Position numbers and translations under genes: made by a program
Notes under the pieces: generated by a model
What the model saw: only the letters and a program-made list of their open reading frames with translations
The model's database searches: none
Told to the model about the DNA's origin: nothing
Part shown: piece by piece, positions 47,833 through 58,070 of the stretch
Position numbering within the stretch: the stretch's first letter is position 1
Layout of the letters: every line of letters begins with the position of its first letter
Source: Mucilaginibacter pineti
GTDB lineage: Bacteria > Bacteroidota > Bacteroidia > Sphingobacteriales > Sphingobacteriaceae
Direction: 5' to 3'
DNA length: 64,000 bases
Assembly: GCF_900101875.1 (NCBI RefSeq)
Contig: NZ_FNAI01000011.1
Span: 186,001 to 250,000, forward strand

Positions 47833-49653
47833 TTATATTTTATTTTCAATATCGTTTATCATGTTTTTTGCCTTGTCGAACATTTGCTGTTCAGATATGC
47901 CGGTTACCGGGGCATAGCGTGCCATATCGCAAAGATCAAGGGTATCCAGCAGCTCGTTTATCAGCGGCTCGTCCAGCGAGCGGGCTTTCAGTTCGGCAGC
48001 AATTTTTTCGCGGTTAAGATCAGCGTACGCAATGTTTAACTTATCGCTCAGGTAACCGTAAAGACCCTTGAAAATATTTTCGTAAAATGCCTTGCTGTTA
48101 TTGGCCGAGAGTTGCGCCTGCGCGCTGGCCAAATGTTTGGCAGCTATTTTACTTGCCTTGCGGCTCTTTACTTTAACAATGTCGCTGTTATTCTTTTCAT
48201 ACCATTTGCCATAAATGAGCGCCCCAACAAATAAAAGCGGACCGAACAATAACAAAAAGTAATACAACCCGGAGTCATAGAAACCTTCGCCGTTTTTGAT
48301 GATATCGCCGCCATTGCTTTTAATATAGCGGATATCTTTATTTAAAAGTTTAACATCCTGCTTATTACCAAATGAAGTAACGTTATTTTCATTTACACCC
48401 TTAGCTACTTTTATATTGAAACCGGCAGTCTGCAGGTTTACATAACGATGGGTATTCAGGTCGAAATAAGCAAATTTAAGCGGCTCTATAGTGAAATTAC
48501 CGCCATGGCGAGGAATGAGCAGGTAGGTATAAATTTTGCTGCCAGATGAGCCGTGTTCGTTATCAACAATGGTATCGGTTGTTTTAGGATCGTACTTTTC
48601 AAAATCGGGCGGGAAATTAGGACTCGGGGCCTGCAACAATTTAATGTTTCCCGATCCGGTAACCTTAATCTTGTAGTTAAGCGGTTCGTTGGCTTTCAAC
48701 TCAGTTTTATCAACCGATGCGCTGATGGTGAATTTACCTACCGCGCCGCTGAAGCCAAGCTGTTTACCTGTTTCTGGCAGGGGTTTAACGTGGATAACTA
48801 CCGGAACACTTTTTATCTTGTACTTAACATCATTATATCCCCCAAAAAACTGGTCGAACGGATCACGTGATTGCGAGGCGGCAGCTTCACGCACAATGAA
48901 ATCCATTATCATGGGGCCGATGGTGATATCGCCCGCATGTTCTGGCGACAGGATATTTTGTTTGATATCGGTTACGTTATACTTTAAACCCTTATAAGTT
49001 TCTACCCGCCAGTGTACCGTTTGGTCGGGTGCTTTAATATCCTGGCTGTAAAAGCCATTCAGGTCTGACAGTTTTTCAAGTTCGTTATTAACAATAGCCA
49101 CACGGGTGTAAAGGCGATAGCTTAGCGTAAGCTGTTCACCTATGTAGGCGCTGGTTTTATTTACCGCTGCCAGTATAAATAAGTTTTTGGAGATATCGCC
49201 GGGCCTGCCTGAATTGATCCTCGGATCGGGACCGTTTTGTGCCTGCGTTTGTGGCTGGTTATTATTTTGCGGTGCCGCCGCGCCTTTTACTACCTTTATT
49301 TTTACCGGATTGGTGTTTAGCTGCTTACCGTTTACTACAATGGTGGCTGCGCCAATGGTGTATGTACCTTCCTTAACGGCAATCAAATCAAAACTAAAAG
49401 CCACGCTTGACGAGGTAACCCCGTTGATCATACTCATACTTTGCGATGTATTTGGGCCCGATACTACGAGGAAACCATTGAAAGACGGCGCTGTAAAGTT
49501 AGTGGCATTGGTATTTACGGTGAAAGTAACCTCAAACTGCTCCGTAGTGCCAACCTCTGTTTTACTTACCGATACGGTAAATTTGGGGTCGGCTGCGTAA
49601 AGCAGGTTGGTGCAAAGCAGCAGTAGTGATAATATATATAACTTCAATTTCAT
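47833..49653 (-). CDS. batD: BatD oxygen-tolerance protein
   Basis: 606 residues. Signal peptide, repeated immunoglobulin-like domains through the periplasmic part (KFTVSVSKTEVGTTEQFEVT; FTISASVDKTELKANEPLNY), a membrane helix (GLYYFLLLFGPLLFVGALIYG) near residue 480, and a cytoplasmic helical tail (YENIFKGLYGYLSDKLNIAY). BatD is the large periplasmic subunit of the Bat system. It lies between batC and batE, 20 bases after batC. Confidence 0.93.
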   Translation of the reverse strand: MKLKLYILSLLLLCTNLLYAADPKFTVSVSKTEVGTTEQFEVTFTVNTNATNFTAPSFNGFLVVSGPNTSQSMSMINGVTSSSVAFSFDLIAVKEGTYTIGAATIVVNGKQLNTNPVKIKVVKGAAAPQNNNQPQTQAQNGPDPRINSGRPGDISKNLFILAAVNKTSAYIGEQLTLSYRLYTRVAIVNNELEKLSDLNGFYSQDIKAPDQTVHWRVETYKGLKYNVTDIKQNILSPEHAGDITIGPMIMDFIVREAAASQSRDPFDQFFGGYNDVKYKIKSVPVVIHVKPLPETGKQLGFSGAVGKFTISASVDKTELKANEPLNYKIKVTGSGNIKLLQAPSPNFPPDFEKYDPKTTDTIVDNEHGSSGSKIYTYLLIPRHGGNFTIEPLKFAYFDLNTHRYVNLQTAGFNIKVAKGVNENNVTSFGNKQDVKLLNKDIRYIKSNGGDIIKNGEGFYDSGLYYFLLLFGPLLFVGALIYGKWYEKNNSDIVKVKSRKASKIAAKHLASAQAQLSANNSKAFYENIFKGLYGYLSDKLNIAYADLNREKIAAELKARSLDEPLINELLDTLDLCDMARYAPVTGISEQQMFDKAKNMINDIENKI

Positions 49654-49673
49654 TGTTTGTTGAACATAAGGCT

Positions 49674-50408
49674 TTACCAGTCTTTGGAGATCTTCATTTT
49701 TGCGCCTTTTAACTTTTTGTTCTTCAGCTTATCCTGTGTTTGCTTTTCATCGTTGTTCAGGGCTTCCAGCATACGTTCGGCATCGTCTTTTGATACGTTA
49801 TTTGGTTGTGGCTGTTGTTGCTGGTCTTTCTTATCCTGGTCCTGCTTGTTCTTGTCCTGGTCTTTTTTATCCTGATCTTTCTTATCCTTGTCCTTATTTT
49901 TATCGTCTTTGTTCTTGTCTTTATTTTTATCCTTGTCTTTGTTCTTGTCGTTCTTTTTGTCCTGCTTATCCTTATCCTGTTGCTTTTTCAGCATTTTTTG
50001 AGCATATGCCAGGTTGTAGCGGGTTTCATCATCCTGCGGATTTCTCAATAACGATTTTTTATAGGCAGCAACACTTTCCTCGTATTTTTTGCCCTCCATA
50101 AATGAGTTACCCAAATTATGATATGCCTTAGCCGCAACCTGTTTATCTTTTGATTCAGTGGCTATTTTGGTAAATTGAGCGCCTGCCTCATCATATTTTT
50201 TTTGTTTGTACAAGGCATCGCCAAGGTTAAAATTTCCCTCAACGGTTTTTGCGGCCTTACCTACCGACTGCCTGTAGTTGGCCTCGGCCTCCTTATAATT
50301 TTGCTGCTGATAAAGGTCGTTACCTTTTTTAATATACTTTTTTTCCTGCTGGGCAAAAAGGAAAGAAGCCTGCAGCAGTAATAATACAACTATGATAAAT
50401 TGCTTCAT
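49674..50408 (-). CDS. batC: BatC TPR protein with Lys/Asp low-complexity tail
   Basis: 244 residues. Signal peptide ending FAQQ; TPR units at about 20-135 (KGNDLYQQQNYKEAEANYRQ, GNSFMEGKKYEESVAAYKKS); then a 60-residue stretch made almost wholly of K, D, N and Q, followed by an acidic tail with EALNNDEKQTQDKLKNKK. The low-complexity tract is the source of long spurious frames on the other strand. Its start overlaps the BatB stop by 4 bases. Confidence 0.92.
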   Translation of the reverse strand: MKQFIIVVLLLLQASFLFAQQEKKYIKKGNDLYQQQNYKEAEANYRQSVGKAAKTVEGNFNLGDALYKQKKYDEAGAQFTKIATESKDKQVAAKAYHNLGNSFMEGKKYEESVAAYKKSLLRNPQDDETRYNLAYAQKMLKKQQDKDKQDKKNDKNKDKDKNKDKNKDDKNKDKDKKDQDKKDQDKNKQDQDKKDQQQQPQPNNVSKDDAERMLEALNNDEKQTQDKLKNKKLKGAKMKISKDW

Positions 50409-51445
50409 GGCTTTTTTACTTCAAATAATTTTAACCCGCTCAACCGCATGTTTTTACGGTTTGATATAAAAAACTCAATCAATAACAACGCGAATGCAAT
50501 AGCCAGGAAAAACTGGAAACGATCTTCAAAGTCCTTGTAGGTTTTGCTGTCGTACATTTTGCGCTGCATTTTTCCTATCTGGTCCATCACAATATCAAGG
50601 CCGCTGTTTGAGTTGTTGGCCCGCACATAAACGCCCCCGCCTGCCGATGAAATATCCTTACACATGTCCTCGCTCAGCTTGCTTATAACTTGTTGGCCGG
50701 TACTGTCGGTATGGAAGCCTGTTTGTCTGCCATCGGTTATGATAGGGATAGGCGCGCCATTGGCCGAGCCTACGCCAACCACACTAACAGCCACATCCTT
50801 AGCCCTTGCGTTTTTGGCCGCTTCAACGGCATTGTCTTCGTGGTTTTCGCCATCGGTAATAATTACCATTGCTTTGCCGGTACCATTCTTAAAATCAAAC
50901 GACTGCATACCCAGGTCTATTGCCGCGCCAATAGCGGTACCCTGTGTAGGTACCATATTGGTGTTAATGGTGCTCAAAAATAATTTTGCTGCCGAGTAAT
51001 CTGTAGTGATAGGCAACTGTACATAAGCCTGCCCCGCAAATACAATGATGCCGATACGGTCGTCGTGCATTTTATCTATCAGCTGGGCAATGGCTTGTTT
51101 GGCGTTCTCCAACCTGTTTGGGGCCAGATCCTGCGCCAGCATACTGTTTGATACGTCGAGTAAGATCATCAGATCAGCGCCTTTGCGTTTCACCTCCTCG
51201 GTTTTTGAACCCAGCTGCGGATCAGACAAGCCCACGATAACCATAGCATAAGCCAGTATAAAGAAGATGAACTTTAGCCACGGACGTGAAAACGATACGT
51301 GCGGCATCATTTCCCTTACCACATTTTTATCGCCCAGGGAAGCAACAGCCTTCTTTTTCCAGCGGCTTACCACTAAAAACAGGATGATAAAGACCGGGAT
51401 TGCTGCCAGTCCGTATAAAAAATCTATATGTGCAAAACGTAGCAT
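50405..51445 (-). CDS. batB: BatB von Willebrand factor A membrane protein
   Basis: 346 residues. Two N-terminal helices, a VWA domain (about 90-300) with a complete MIDAS (LLDVSNSMLAQDL, then Thr in TQGTAIG and Asp in IITDGENHED), and a C-terminal membrane helix (FFLAIAFALLLIEFFIS). The VWA domain faces the periplasm. It follows batA by 3 bases. Confidence 0.93.
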   Translation of the reverse strand: MLRFAHIDFLYGLAAIPVFIILFLVVSRWKKKAVASLGDKNVVREMMPHVSFSRPWLKFIFFILAYAMVIVGLSDPQLGSKTEEVKRKGADLMILLDVSNSMLAQDLAPNRLENAKQAIAQLIDKMHDDRIGIIVFAGQAYVQLPITTDYSAAKLFLSTINTNMVPTQGTAIGAAIDLGMQSFDFKNGTGKAMVIITDGENHEDNAVEAAKNARAKDVAVSVVGVGSANGAPIPIITDGRQTGFHTDSTGQQVISKLSEDMCKDISSAGGGVYVRANNSNSGLDIVMDQIGKMQRKMYDSKTYKDFEDRFQFFLAIAFALLLIEFFISNRKNMRLSGLKLFEVKKP

Positions 51446-51448
51446 CTA

Positions 51449-52453
51449 TTAAGTTAAGGCCCCTTTAAACAGGGTGTTTTTCAATAAAAATTCAAGCGAT
51501 AATAAAGCCAGCGCTATGATGGCCCAAGGCATAAACATTTCTGTTTTTTTGCGATACTGGGTAACATCTATCTTGGCTTTTTCCAGTTTATCAATCTGGG
51601 TATAAATATCTTTCAGTGTTTCGTTATTGGTGGCCCTGAAATATTTACCACCCGTAATACTGGCTATTTTTGATAGTGTACCCTCATCTATATCAACTTT
51701 CATCCGCTGGTATTGTATGCCAATGGGCGTTTGAACCGGGTAAGGTGCATAACCATTGGTACCCAAACCAACTGTATACACACGCACGTTAAATTGCTTG
51801 GCAATTTCGGCAGCAGTAATTGGCGGGATAGAACCAGCATTGTTTGATCCATCGGTGAGCAAGATTATCACCTTGCTTTTAGCCTCGCTGCCCCGCAGGC
51901 GGTTTACAGCTGTTGCCAATCCCATACCAATGGCGGTACCATCGGTTATCATACCGTTCTTGATATCGGCGTAAAGGTTGATCAGTACGTCATGATCAAT
52001 AGTAAGCGGGCATTGCGTAAAGCTTTCACCGCTGAAGATCACCAGACCTATCCGGTCGTTCGGGCGGTTCTTGATAAAATCTATGGCGATATTTTTACCT
52101 GCCTCCAAACGGTTGGGCTTAAAATCTTCGGCAAGCATACTGCCCGAAATATCAGATGCTATCATGATATCGATACCCTCGGTAGTAGAATCCTGCCAGC
52201 TTAAGGACGATTGCGGTCTTGCCAGCGCCACTACCAAAGCCGCCATAGCCAATGATCGTAATATGATACCCAGATGCCTGAAACGCGGCACCATGCTTTT
52301 TTTAATAATGGTAAAGCCCTTTATAGAAGGTACATTAAGGTTACCCTGTAATTGTTTTTGTTTCCAGATGTACCAGCCAACCATTAGCGGTATGGTGATA
52401 AACAGCCAGAAAAATCCGGGGTGGGCAAATTCTATTCCTTTAAACCAGCTCAT
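51449..52453 (-). CDS. batA: BatA von Willebrand factor A membrane protein
   Basis: 334 residues with the same plan as BatB: N-terminal membrane helices (FWLFITIPLMVGWYIW), VWA domain with MIDAS residues in IASDISGSMLAEDF, TDGTAIGMG and LLTDGSNNAG, and a C-terminal helix (FMPWAIIALALLSLEFLL). It probably forms a complex with BatB. It overlaps the preceding gene by 4 bases. Confidence 0.93.
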   Translation of the reverse strand: MSWFKGIEFAHPGFFWLFITIPLMVGWYIWKQKQLQGNLNVPSIKGFTIIKKSMVPRFRHLGIILRSLAMAALVVALARPQSSLSWQDSTTEGIDIMIASDISGSMLAEDFKPNRLEAGKNIAIDFIKNRPNDRIGLVIFSGESFTQCPLTIDHDVLINLYADIKNGMITDGTAIGMGLATAVNRLRGSEAKSKVIILLTDGSNNAGSIPPITAAEIAKQFNVRVYTVGLGTNGYAPYPVQTPIGIQYQRMKVDIDEGTLSKIASITGGKYFRATNNETLKDIYTQIDKLEKAKIDVTQYRKKTEMFMPWAIIALALLSLEFLLKNTLFKGALT

Positions 52454-53424
52454 TTGTTGCCCTCTTCTTTTATAGGTAATGGCTGCTGTACCTGTACCGG
52501 CTGCGTTTTGGTTACAAAGCTCATGGCATTTTCAATAGTTTGCTCGTTTTCAAACGGTAGTGGTTTTTCCTTGGCAAACTTCACCAAATCGGCCAGGATA
52601 AGGGTTTGGCGCAATACATTCCGTTGTTCTTCGGCAATATCCATGTAACGCAGACTGGCGAAGATCTCATCGGATGTTTGCTCCAGCGCTTGTATTGCAT
52701 AGCGGCTTTCCAGATACTCGCGCACCACGTCGCTCAGTTCAATGTAGTACTGCTTGGTTTGCTCCTGCTGCCAGAGCTTTTTATCCCGTATTTCGGCCAG
52801 CTTTTGCAAGGCGATAATATGTGGTGGTATTGCAGGTTTAACTTCTTCAACAACTACTTCTTTCTTAGGTCGTTTTATAAAATAGTATATAATACCGGCA
52901 ATAACCAAAATAGCTGCAAAACCACCTGCTACCAATTTCCAATTGTCGCGCAGCCAATCCAAAAACGTGTATTTTACGGTTAGTGGCTGCTTAATATCTT
53001 TAAAAGCCTTGCTGGTATCGATATCAGTTGGCGGCGTTACATTTAACGATAAGGGCGGCGAACTCACAACGCCTGCCGGGGTTTTAAACGCGTAGGATGG
53101 AATTACGTATTCGCCGCTATCAAATGCGGTAACGGTATAGCTTTTATGAATAGTTTCCAGGCTCAGATCGTCCTTATCAAAAATGGTATCTGTTTTACTG
53201 CTGCTTACAATTTGTATCTTGCCGATAGAATCCTTTAGTACCGGGAACTCCACCTTATCCTTTACTTTAAACTTTAAGCTCAGGTGTAGCTGGGTTTGTT
53301 CACCAAGCATAATAGAAGTCCTGTCGAGCTTGGCGCCGGCTTGTGGGGTTTGCGCGCTGGCCTTTAAAAAAGTACCTGTAAGCAACAATAACAACAAGAA
53401 ATATGTATAATACTGCCTCATCAT
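52450..53424 (-). CDS. Bat-operon membrane protein (BatD-like N-terminus, DUF4381-like)
   Basis: 324 residues. Signal peptide (FLLLLLLTGTFLKASAQ), a BatD-like immunoglobulin domain (DRTSIMLGEQTQLHLSLKFK), one membrane helix (LVAGGFAAILVIAGIIYYFI) and a cytoplasmic helical part (YYIELSDVVREYLESRYAIQ). Proteins of this type stand between DUF58 and BatA in most Bat operons and are often left unnamed. It overlaps both neighbours by 4 bases. Confidence 0.85.
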   Translation of the reverse strand: MMRQYYTYFLLLLLLTGTFLKASAQTPQAGAKLDRTSIMLGEQTQLHLSLKFKVKDKVEFPVLKDSIGKIQIVSSSKTDTIFDKDDLSLETIHKSYTVTAFDSGEYVIPSYAFKTPAGVVSSPPLSLNVTPPTDIDTSKAFKDIKQPLTVKYTFLDWLRDNWKLVAGGFAAILVIAGIIYYFIKRPKKEVVVEEVKPAIPPHIIALQKLAEIRDKKLWQQEQTKQYYIELSDVVREYLESRYAIQALEQTSDEIFASLRYMDIAEEQRNVLRQTLILADLVKFAKEKPLPFENEQTIENAMSFVTKTQPVQVQQPLPIKEEGNK

Positions 53425-54302
53425 TTTCTGCTTTCCCGCTTTTTAAATAGTGTCATTAATGGTTTCACGTATGATTCATGGGTGCCCACGCTTGTAAAAT
53501 CGACCCCCGATCTTTTAAAAGTTTCATTAAGCAGGCCGTTTCGTTTTAGCGCATCGGCTTTAAAGGCCTGGCGTACGTGCTCGTCGGCGGTGTTTACCCA
53601 TATCACCTGGTCGGTTTCTTCATCTTTCATGGGGATAAGGCCCAGGTTAGGGAACTCCTGCTCGTGCTTATCATAAAGGCGCAAGGCAATAATGTCGTGC
53701 TTTTTATTGGCTATCTTCAGCGCATCCTCAAAACCCGGACTAATAAAATCTGACAGGATAAAGGCTGTACACTTCTTTTTAATAACACTGGTAAAATATT
53801 TAAGCGCTACGCCAACATCGGTGCCTTTATTCTCGGGTTTAAAATCTATCAGTTCCCTGATGATCATGAGGATATGACTGCGGCCTTTTTTTGGTGGAAT
53901 GAATTTTTCTATCTTATCGCTAAAAAATATAACCCCAACCTTATCATTATTTTGAATGGCCGAAAACGCCAGCACTGCGCAAAGCTCAGTAGCCAGATCC
54001 TGTTTTTGCTGGTTTTGAGTACCGAAGTTTTCGGAACCGCTTACGTCCATCAACAACATAACGGTAAGCTCGCGCTCTTCGTCAAATACTTTTACGTACG
54101 GGTGGTTAAAACGGGCGGTAACGTTCCAGTCGATAGTGCGGATTTCATCTCCGATCTGGTATTCGCGTACCTCGCTAAAGGCCATACCGCGCCCTTTGAA
54201 AGCCGAATGATACTCGCCCGAAAACAGGTGGTTACTTAGCCCCCGGGTTTTGATCTCTATCTTCCTTACTTTTTTTAAAAGTTCCTTGGTATCCTTAGCC
54301 AT
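53421..54302 (-). CDS. DUF58 protein of the MoxR-Bat operon
   Basis: 293 residues from ATG 54302 (MAKDTKELLKKVRKI); a GTG three codons upstream lies inside a repeat and is unlikely. The DUF58 signature GRGMAFSEVREYQIGDEIRT and DWN is present, then a VWA-like part (VMLLMDVSGSENFG, FILSDFISPGF). It lacks the membrane helices of longer DUF58 proteins, so this is the short soluble form. It probably hands substrates from MoxR to the Bat proteins. Confidence 0.92.
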   Translation of the reverse strand: MAKDTKELLKKVRKIEIKTRGLSNHLFSGEYHSAFKGRGMAFSEVREYQIGDEIRTIDWNVTARFNHPYVKVFDEERELTVMLLMDVSGSENFGTQNQQKQDLATELCAVLAFSAIQNNDKVGVIFFSDKIEKFIPPKKGRSHILMIIRELIDFKPENKGTDVGVALKYFTSVIKKKCTAFILSDFISPGFEDALKIANKKHDIIALRLYDKHEQEFPNLGLIPMKDEETDQVIWVNTADEHVRQAFKADALKRNGLLNETFKRSGVDFTSVGTHESYVKPLMTLFKKRESRK

Positions 54303-54304
54303 AA

Positions 54305-54429
54305 GCCTCACCTAAATCCTCTCCAAAGGAGAGGACTTCTTAACCCCCAATTACAGAGGCATGTAAATTCCTGTTTTTTTTAATACTCCTTATTACCTCC
54401 CTCTCCTTTGGAGAGGGCCGGGGTGAGGC
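54305..54429. repeat. palindromic repeat inside the moxR-bat operon
   Basis: Outer arms GCCTCACC (54305-54312) and GGTGAGGC (54422-54429). Inner arms, each itself a hairpin: CCTCTCCAAAGGAGAGG (54318-54334) and CCTCTCCTTTGGAGAGG (54400-54416). It fills the space between the moxR stop and the DUF58 start, the only gap in an otherwise overlapping operon. Confidence 0.8.
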
Positions 54430-54430
54430 C

Positions 54431-55486
54431 TTACGGTACCTCTACCACATTTAAAATGCCGGTAATTATATTTTCTGTGGTGATGTTTTCGGCTTCGGCC
54501 TCGTAGCTTAAGCCAATACGGTGGCGTAAAACATCATGACAAATAGCGCGTACATCCTCGGGTATTACATAGCCACGACGTTTTATAAACGCATAAGCCT
54601 TTGCTGCCAATGCCAGGTTGATACTTGCACGCGGCGATGCGCCATAAGTAACCAGGTTTTTGTAATGCGCCAGTTTATATTGCTCGGGGAAACGGGTTGC
54701 GAAAACAATATCGATGATGTATTGCTCAATCTTCTCGTCCATATATACTTCGCGAACAACTTTGCGGGCACGTATAATTTCTTCGGGTTTAATAATTGGC
54801 GATGGTTTTGGCATGCCGCCCGGTAAAATGTTTGCTCGGATGATGCGCTTTTCATCTTCCTTCTCGGGGTAGCCAATTACCACTTTCAGCATAAAACGGT
54901 CAACCTGTGCTTCGGGCAACGGGTAAGTACCTTCCTGTTCAATAGGGTTTTGGGTAGCCAATACCAGGAATGGGTTTGGCAGCGGGAAGGTATTATCGCC
55001 AATGGTTACCTGGCGCTCCTGCATGGCCTCCAGCAATGCGCTTTGCACTTTGGCAGGGGCACGGTTAATCTCATCGGCCAGGATAAAGTTGGAGAATAAT
55101 GGTCCTTTACGAACAATGAACTCTTCCTTTTTCTGGTTGTAGATCATGGTACCTAATAAATCGGCAGGTAACAGATCGGGCGTGAACTGGATACGGCTGT
55201 AATCAACCTGAACAGCTTTTGCAAGCGTATTAATAGCCAGCGTTTTTGCCAGCCCCGGTACACCTTCCAACAGGATGTGCCCATCGGCCAGTAAACCGAT
55301 CAGCAGGCGCTCCACCATATATTTTTGACCAACAATCACTTTATCCATCTCCATTTTAAGGAGATCAATAAAGGCACTTTCCTTTTGTATCATTTCGTTC
55401 AGCGCCCTGATATCTGTTGAGTACGATGTACTGCCGGTAACCGCGCCCGACGAAATATTTCCGGTATTTGTATTTAAATCTTCCAT
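54431..55486 (-). CDS. MoxR-family AAA+ ATPase
   Basis: 351 residues. An N-terminal low-complexity start, then Walker A GVPGLAKT, Walker B FILADEINRAP, sensor 1 VLATQNPIEQEGTY and the C-terminal lid (YGASPRASINLALAAKAYAF). MoxR ATPases act as chaperones that mature VWA-domain partners, here the Bat proteins downstream. First gene of the operon; a candidate promoter is at 55510-55541. Confidence 0.95.
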   Translation of the reverse strand: MEDLNTNTGNISSGAVTGSTSYSTDIRALNEMIQKESAFIDLLKMEMDKVIVGQKYMVERLLIGLLADGHILLEGVPGLAKTLAINTLAKAVQVDYSRIQFTPDLLPADLLGTMIYNQKKEEFIVRKGPLFSNFILADEINRAPAKVQSALLEAMQERQVTIGDNTFPLPNPFLVLATQNPIEQEGTYPLPEAQVDRFMLKVVIGYPEKEDEKRIIRANILPGGMPKPSPIIKPEEIIRARKVVREVYMDEKIEQYIIDIVFATRFPEQYKLAHYKNLVTYGASPRASINLALAAKAYAFIKRRGYVIPEDVRAICHDVLRHRIGLSYEAEAENITTENIITGILNVVEVP

Positions 55487-57082: not shown

Positions 57083-57116
57083 AAATTTCTGCTTGTTGCG
57101 ATTAAAAAAAAGGCTT

Positions 57117-57151
57117 AAAAACAGCAAAGCCCCTGATGGGCAGGGGCCTTT
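57117..57151 (-). terminator. terminator after the tRNA-like genes
   Basis: GCCCCTG (57129-57135) pairs with CAGGGGC (57141-57147), extended by AAA/TTT. On the minus strand it is followed by a T run, so it ends the transcript of the two tRNA-like genes; on the plus strand it can help end the gene at 56027. Confidence 0.75.
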
Positions 57152-57185
57152 ACTAACCAATTATAAACCTAAATTATGAGAAGAG

Positions 57186-57301
57186 CTGTAGGAGAAGGGG
57201 TCGAACCTCCACGGAGTGGTTATTTTTATTGCTAAAAGTTTCCCAATTTCTCCGCCACCGCGACAAGGAGGTGTGTCTGCCAAAAATTTCACCATCCTAC
57301 A
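57186..57301 (-). tRNA. tRNA-like gene A: type II fold, GUC (Asp) anticodon, giant variable arm
   Basis: Read on the minus strand: acceptor TGTAGGA pairs with TCCTACA (7 bp), then U8-G9, D arm GTG/CAC with a leucine-like loop (AAATTTTTGGCAGA), anticodon arm CCTCC-TTGTCGC-GGTGG (one central U-U) giving anticodon GUC, variable arm CGGAG...CTCCG of about 43 nt holding the hairpin TTTTA-GCAA-TAAAA, T arm GGAGG-TTCGACC-CCTTC, and G73. CCA is not encoded. U33, G18-G19 and the TTCGA loop are intact. Several AspRS identity bases of E. coli (G73, G2-C71, G10, GUC, C38) are present on a body otherwise like tRNA-Leu. Whether it is charged or used in translation is unknown. Unit B lies 28 bases upstream. 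Confidence 0.6.
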
Positions 57302-57329
57302 GGATATAATCTCCGCCTATGTGAGATTG

Positions 57330-57441
57330 CTGTTGGGGAAGGATTCGAACCTCCACAGAGTAGTTAGCCCGCTTCGGGTTTCCTATGATCTCCGCCACCG
57401 GGACAAGGAGGTGTGTCTGCCAAAAATTTCACCACCCAACA
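57330..57441 (-). tRNA. tRNA-like gene B: same fold as A, GUC anticodon
   Basis: Acceptor TGTTGGG pairs with CCCAACA; the D arm is identical to unit A; the anticodon arm is CCTCC-TTGTCCC-GGTGG, again GUC; variable arm CGGAG...CTCTG of about 39 nt with the nested hairpin CCCG-AAG-CGGG; T arm GGAGG-TTCGAAT-CCTTC; G73; no encoded CCA. Compared with A, acceptor pairs 4 and 7 and the whole nested hairpin change on both sides so that pairing is kept, which argues for a selected RNA structure. The 28-base spacer before A holds a hairpin AATCTC/GAGATT (57308-57328), possibly a processing site. Transcribed first. Confidence 0.6.
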
Positions 57442-57465
57442 TTGTTTTTTTGTTTAAAGAACGAT

Positions 57466-57520
57466 AAGCAATTGTCATTTGCTTGATACAAATTTAATAG
57501 ACCTATCAATTCCTTGCAAA
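57466..57520 (-). promoter_or_regulatory. promoter and 5' hairpin of the tRNA-like transcript
   Basis: On the minus strand TTTG (57517-57520) and TAAATTTG (57489-57496) are separated by 20 bases, an almost ideal Bacteroidota -33/-7 pair. Transcription would start near 57482. The first transcribed bases form a hairpin AAGCAA/TTGCTT (57466-57471 with 57479-57484). The expected RNA, including both units, is about 370-380 nt long. Confidence 0.6.
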
Positions 57521-57593: not shown

Positions 57594-58070
57594 ATGTCCC
57601 ACAGAAAAGCTCAAAATTTAGAAATTGATAATCTCGATATACAGATTTTATCAATATTAATGAAAAATGCTACCACGCCATACACCGAGATAGCTAAAGA
57701 GTTAATCGTTTCTGGCGGAACCATACACGTGAGGATGAAGAAGTTGGAAGAGATGGGTGTAATAAAAGGTGCCAGTTTAGAAGTTGATCCTCAAAAACTT
57801 GGCTATGATATTACTGCCTTTTTGGGCATTTATCTTGAAAAAGGCTCACAATATAATGAGGCCGTTAAGCAATTGAAAACCATTAAAGAAATTGTAGAAC
57901 TGCACTATACCACAGGCGAATGGAGCATTTTTGCCAAAATTGTATGCCATGATACCACCCACCTGCGCGAGGTTTTAAATGAGCAAATTCAGGGTGTAAA
58001 AGGCATCCAACGTACCGAAACTTTCATTTCACTTGAAGAAAGTATCAGGAGACAGATCACATTAGAGTAA
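57594..58070 (+). CDS. Lrp/AsnC-family transcriptional regulator
   Basis: 158 residues. The N-terminal helix-turn-helix is typical (NLDIQILSILMKNATTPYTE, ELIVSGGTIHVRMKKLEEMG), followed by the RAM/AsnC effector domain with beta strands around DITAFLGIYLEKGSQYNEA and TTGEWSIFAKIVCHD. It binds an amino acid or another small ligand as an octamer. It is divergent from the two tRNA-like genes, sharing a 152-base AT-rich intergenic region. Confidence 0.93.
   Translation: MSHRKAQNLEIDNLDIQILSILMKNATTPYTEIAKELIVSGGTIHVRMKKLEEMGVIKGASLEVDPQKLGYDITAFLGIYLEKGSQYNEAVKQLKTIKEIVELHYTTGEWSIFAKIVCHDTTHLREVLNEQIQGVKGIQRTETFISLEESIRRQITLE

Follow-up and report, generated by a model that had tools for sequence, protein, structure and literature searches.

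The window analysed here, a 64,000-nucleotide stretch of the Mucilaginibacter pineti genome, carries two tandem tRNA-like RNAs belonging to a structured family that has conserved recognition sets for AspRS and GatCAB and co-occurs with GatCAB and with the absence of asparagine synthetases. We consider it probable that these RNAs are tRNA-Leu-derived, non-decoding carriers for tRNA-dependent asparagine synthesis, which AspRS would charge and GatCAB would amidate, with release of the asparagine and control by AsnC. As far as we checked, the family is undescribed, having neither an Rfam family nor a paper in the open-access literature (subscription papers and preprints were outside the scope of that search). 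The chemistry of AspRS and GatCAB is already known; within the same scope, a dedicated non-decoding carrier would be new.

Both units lie on the minus strand; each is a tRNA-like RNA of class II whose anticodon is GUC. Unit A (57330-57441; 112 nt; anticodon 57402-57404) and unit B (57186-57301; 116 nt; anticodon 57262-57264) score 117 and 126 bits with model R1 and are separated by a spacer at 57302-57329. A first-pass annotation, made from this DNA alone, had described two tandem 7/5 cloverleaves with GUC, a GG in the D loop and a TTCGA T loop, and the sequence bears this out: each unit has a 7-bp acceptor stem with U1-A72, a 3-bp D stem with GG in its loop, a 5-bp T stem with a TTCGA loop, and G73, and CCA is not encoded. 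In this genus the anticodon stem has a U-U mismatch at its central pair (CCUCC/GGUGG), and distant homologues pair fully. The variable arms measure 39 nt in A (57356-57394) and 43 nt in B (57212-57254) and hold a nested hairpin in both, the same range and fold as originally reported. Also as reported, acceptor pairs 4 and 7 differ between the units on both strands, and the D arms are identical. The stretch ACACCUCCUU in the two anticodon arms (57405-57414 and 57265-57274) equals the 3' terminus of 16S rRNA in Bacteroidota, the anti-Shine-Dalgarno; this identity was dropped as a function of the family because it is confined to close relatives and absent in distant homologues.

The units share the good -33/-7 promoter and the terminator that the annotation had proposed. 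On the minus strand, a -33 element TTTG (57517-57520) is followed after 20 nt by a -7 element TAAATTTG (57489-57496) of the Bacteroidota TAnnTTTG type; both were read from the sequence, and the second recurs at homologous loci, with TAnnTTTG upstream of 101 of 133 compared with about 10 in shuffles. The leader contains a boxA-like motif, GTTCTTTAA (57454-57462, minus strand), which may act in antitermination; GTTCTT is enriched in homologous leaders (48 of 135 versus a mean of 2.8 in shuffles). Downstream of unit B, a 38-nt 3' trailer, CTCTTCTCATAATTTAGGTTTATAATTGGTTAGTAAAG (57148-57185, minus strand), is kept within the genus and runs into an intrinsic terminator of a hairpin and T tracts (57104-57151, minus strand), again a sequence reading; many distant loci also have a hairpin and T run downstream of the RNA. 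The trailer stays nearly identical at genus loci that have the two units widely separated. Elsewhere in the window, positions 47833-55486 hold a cluster of von Willebrand-type, BatA/BatB-like and MoxR-like genes, which is typical of Bacteroidota and unrelated to the RNA.

Next to the two units, a divergent plus-strand gene (57594-58070) encodes a 158-residue AsnC-type regulator (Pfam AsnC_trans_reg). Its best match among solved structures is E. coli AsnC, 2cg4 (E 1.5e-37, 132 bits), the next best reaching 78 bits and Lrp 50 bits. A divergent AsnC-type homologue lies near the RNA at 44 of 60 loci in one set and, in a second set, at 47 of 79 loci at a distance of 114-262 nt, with six of the loci truncated upstream; at about one-third of RNA loci AsnC is not adjacent. 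In those RNA-negative genomes that were checked, neither asnA nor canonical asnB had AsnC as a neighbour, and neither gatB nor aspS adjoined the RNA at its own loci.

At the locus of units A and B, ARAGORN gave no match and Rfam none at or above its gathering score; permissive E-values yielded only chance-level matches, as they did for one long form from a chromosome and one form from a phage. Single-sequence folding energies were close to those of shuffled sequences (z -0.08 and -0.56, not significant), so that support for the structure rests on comparison. We used a covariance model built from 15 sequences, with which true members score above about 62 bits and are usually longer than 105 nt; the nearest decoys are ordinary tRNA-Leu genes, mostly 50-63 bits and 80-86 nt. 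Among 82 distinct members, standard pairs fill 97.1% of paired cells, and double changes affect 16 of the 28 pairs. The 274 double-change cells compare with 80 in shuffles; none of 500 shuffles was as high, every slid control was lower, and 103 sequences from named genomes, used as an independent set, had the same covariation outcome. Homologues with covarying stems, which the first-pass annotation had proposed to look for, thus exist, and the genome's own tRNA-Leu genes, its suggested ordinary explanation, do not account for the locus.

In total we collected 242 distinct homologues, 174 chromosomal and 68 viral. A DNA search placed the units in about 95% of the genus-sample genomes and scattered among relatives of the class, where the RNA is present in 73 of 396 genomes when models R1 and R2 and a pattern search are combined to call presence. 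Hosts among the matches listed include Mucilaginibacter, Pedobacter, Chitinophaga, Cyclobacterium, Algoriphagus, Dyadobacter, Spirosoma, Hymenobacter and Saprospiraceae.

The body of the RNA resembles that of bacterial class II tRNA-Leu in its D arm, overall shape and tertiary core. Unlike tRNA-Leu, which has A73 and a Leu anticodon, the family has an invariant G73, U1-A72, GUC, a pyrimidine at position 37 and a variable arm that spans 36-130 nt in chromosomal copies. Long variable arms and G73 also occur in allo-tRNAs and bacterial tRNA-Sec, which have 8/4, 9/3 or 8/5 branches and other anticodons, whereas the RNA is 7/5 throughout with GUC. The variable arm of the short forms consists of a 5-bp stem, a covarying 3-bp stem (TAG/CTA, TGG/CCA, CAG/CTG or CGG/CCG), an internal loop ending in CUAA and a variable hairpin beyond. 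In long forms there is also a conserved GGGUUGACC-type core, which a simple pattern recovers in 51 chromosomal and 55 viral sequences. One could imagine that this arm, with its core in the long forms, acts as a functional domain that helps asparagine leave the 3' end of the same RNA, making the RNA, AspRS and GatCAB together a ribonucleoprotein asparagine synthetase; we regard this as improbable.

The recognition sets of two enzymes are conserved in the family. U35, C36 and C38 are present in 100% of the 242 distinct sequences and G34 in 234 (97%); G73 is invariant, G2 occurs in all sequences, and the G2-C71 pair of tRNA-Asp is kept. C38 is an AspRS recognition base in E. coli, whose AspRS also uses G1-C72 and G10. 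Of the AspRS bases named in the first-pass annotation, the anticodon, C38, G73 and G2-C71 therefore held up but G10 did not, position 10 being A, G or U. The RNA thus shares with tRNA-Asp(GUC) the anticodon, C38, G73 and G2-C71, and differs from it in its class II body, in having U1-A72 rather than G1-C72, and in an unconserved position 33 and pyrimidine-37. U1-A72 is present in 173 of 174 chromosomal and 62 of 68 viral copies, the other six viral copies having A1-U72; among the tRNAs of this genome, only those for Gln and Asn and one for Met have U1. The anticodon-loop contacts of AspRS belong to identity sets that have been reviewed (PMC9976931), and U1-A72 is the determinant by which tRNA-Asn and tRNA-Gln become substrates of bacterial amidotransferases, whereas G1-C72 of tRNA-Asp blocks these enzymes (PMC9976931, PMC4206432). 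In every homologue inspected, C74 is encoded after G73 without a full CCA, as in most ordinary tRNAs here; this context, together with phage copies in tRNA arrays, suggests tRNA-type processing. An eighth acceptor pair, C(-1)-G73, was considered and rejected, as a minority of copies lack C at base -1.

The remainder of the anticodon loop is free to vary at positions 32, 33 and 37. Of the 174 chromosomal copies, 136 have U33 (non-U in 22%), several lineages having lost it. A pyrimidine occupies position 37 in 161 of these 174 and in every one of the 68 viral copies (95% overall), in contrast to the ordinary tRNAs examined in this genome, 43 of 43 of which have U33 and a purine at 37. In the window, unit B alone (U33, G37) has the decoding combination; the family as a whole does not. 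Because the AspRS positions are kept while 33 and 37 vary, the loop retains AspRS contacts and not decoding geometry. Eight of the 174 chromosomal copies have U34 or C34, giving Glu-type anticodons, and retain U35, C36 and C38 (loci L117, L120, L135, L189 and L197 hold such copies). A UUC anticodon occurs in G439 and in G371, a genome with neither AsnA nor AsnB above cut-off. A 76-nt relative in the Hymenobacter lineage (G147, L401:1500-1576) lacks the long variable arm, has an AUC anticodon and lies in a genome with AsnA; AsnA is thus present in two odd-anticodon lineages (G261 and G147) and absent from G371. The U34/C34 copies and the AUC copy do not fit the carrier reading simply.

We then compared the distribution of the RNA with that of the enzymes, in counts that all ignore phylogeny. 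This genome encodes GatB, as do 72 of 73 RNA-positive genomes compared with 237 of 323 RNA-negative ones among the 396 of the class. In 57 chosen genomes AsnRS was universal and GlnRS present in 32. A genome with both enzymes does not need GatCAB for translation. Among these 32, all 21 RNA-positive genomes have GatB and none of the 11 RNA-negative ones does (exact p 8e-9, with kinship ignored); AsnA or canonical AsnB (the 560-residue type) occurs in 1 of the former 21 and in 10 of the latter 11. Genome G294, initially an exception with GatB and GlnRS and no RNA, was found to carry the RNA, as predicted, once the model had been improved. RNA and GatB are jointly absent from genera g55, g57 and g58 of family f1 and g82 of family f2, and from G165 and G314 of family f36. 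Exceptions run both ways: G422, which lies outside the GlnRS comparison, has GatB and no detected RNA, and G418 has the RNA and no detected GatB. AsnA accompanies the RNA in G381 and G261, and many RNA-positive genomes have longer AsnB-like proteins of 600-650 residues in place of the canonical type; one from this genome is 31% identical to the canonical AsnB of G150. In G091, G371, G432, G303 and G339, no AsnB-like protein exceeded the family cut-off.

Together, a loop that is not kept fit for decoding and an RNA whose distribution follows that of GatCAB and the lack of asparagine synthetases point to asparagine synthesis. The first-pass annotation had called the RNA a Leu-like-bodied, non-standard tRNA or tRNA-derived RNA, possibly charged with Asp; the tRNA-Leu decoys and the AspRS anticodon set conserved across 242 sequences support that description, and its meaning shifts to this pathway. 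In the scheme we favour, AspRS would recognise G34, U35, C36, C38 and G73 and attach aspartate, and GatCAB would read U1-A72 and amidate the bound aspartate to asparagine. The loop and large variable arm would keep the product off the ribosome, as they must if asparagine on a GUC anticodon is not to replace aspartate. Since the proposed carrier does not read Asn codons, the asparagine would have to be freed, after which AsnRS could use it, and the divergent AsnC regulator would tune transcription to asparagine supply. Release is the weakest link of the scheme, and bulk supply would need it to be fast. We count against the scheme the U34/C34 copies, G371, the AsnA of G381 and G261, the long AsnB-like proteins, the loci lacking an adjacent AsnC, the absent G1-C72 and G10, G422, G418 and the A1-U72 viral copies. 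A single reading would nonetheless cover the data, namely that the RNA passes for tRNA-Asp with AspRS and for tRNA-Asn with GatCAB and works outside translation.

Staphylococcal peptidoglycan tRNA-Gly is a charged, non-ribosomal tRNA dedicated to work outside the ribosome; it differs from the RNA in amino acid, pathway and body, and involves no amidation. The closest known chemistry is asparagine synthesis on tRNA-Asn in Deinococcus, Thermus and Bdellovibrio, where AspRS attaches aspartate and GatCAB reads U1-A72, as in our scheme, and where the pathway is likewise found in the presence of AsnRS and GlnRS and the absence of AsnA and AsnB (PMC4206432). In those bacteria, however, the decoding tRNA-Asn serves as carrier and AspRS must be non-discriminating, whereas here the carrier would be a separate RNA with the cognate GUC. 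A survey had noted Bacteroidetes genera with AsnRS, GlnRS and GatCAB and without asparagine synthetase, and proposed tRNA-Asn as carrier (PMC4206432). If our scheme is right, one of the amino acids of proteins is built in some bacteria on an RNA devoted solely to that task, a single molecule that joins AspRS and GatCAB recognition and avoids translation. It would explain why many Bacteroidota retain GatCAB beside GlnRS and AsnRS and where their asparagine comes from, and would add a class of tRNA-like RNA to large phages.

Alternatively, the RNA may bind AspRS and GatCAB as a scaffold or sensor and not as a carrier, much like the scaffold tRNA of the transamidosome, tuning synthesis on tRNA-Asn or reporting Asp/Asn status. 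The same recognition sets and co-occurrence suit a binding role, the large variable arms would be suitable for a scaffold, no release step is necessary, and the tRNA-Asn of this genome has U1-A72. Synthesis on tRNA-Asn would, however, require a non-discriminating AspRS. The genome's AspRS is of bacterial type and, at both sites compared (RDLG and KN, which bear on discrimination), agrees with the discriminating enzyme of E. coli; this makes tRNA-Asn less likely as the amidated substrate. In addition, a tRNA-type 3' context (G73, C74) was seen in all copies inspected and would be superfluous for a pure scaffold. We therefore think a scaffold unlikely, while according it some weight.

That the RNA is an unusual Asp tRNA that decodes GAC and GAU codons is very doubtful. 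It has the GUC anticodon and a canonical T loop and acceptor, and ARAGORN called one short phage copy tRNA-Asp; against this, U33 is lost in several lineages, pyrimidine-37 predominates, and an ordinary tRNA-Asp(GUC) is present in this genome and in many phage arrays. We give hardly any credence to a Ser-charged class II RNA, for which the long variable arm and invariant G73 would make a SerRS-type substrate with an irrelevant anticodon, as it leaves unexplained both the invariant U35, C36 and C38 and the association with GatCAB, with AsnC and with a lack of asparagine synthetases.

A decoy or replacement tRNA from phage-host conflict, spread by phages and retained in chromosomes, would suit the matches to viral contigs and the phage copies in large tRNA arrays but is just as hard to credit, given chromosomal copies in about 95% of genus-sample genomes that have their own promoter, often neighbour AsnC and track GatCAB. 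The core pattern matches 115 viral contigs, and nearly all of the 80 examined have a full-length match of 57-96 bits. Many viral copies sit inside tRNA arrays of up to 25 genes, some only 5-10 nt from neighbouring genes, with tmRNA close by in two cases. One copy is carried by an uncultured 636-kb phage record; this unannotated huge phage was the only match when annotated phage records were sought. A viral contig with the RNA (L291:12889-14112) also encodes an AsnB-like protein, 30% identical to canonical AsnB. Several viral copies (L339:4123-4291, L300, L306 and others) have an additional D-loop helix, and their variable arms contain palindromic loops, GCTTGCAAGC and GCCGGCCGGC, through which they could form dimers.
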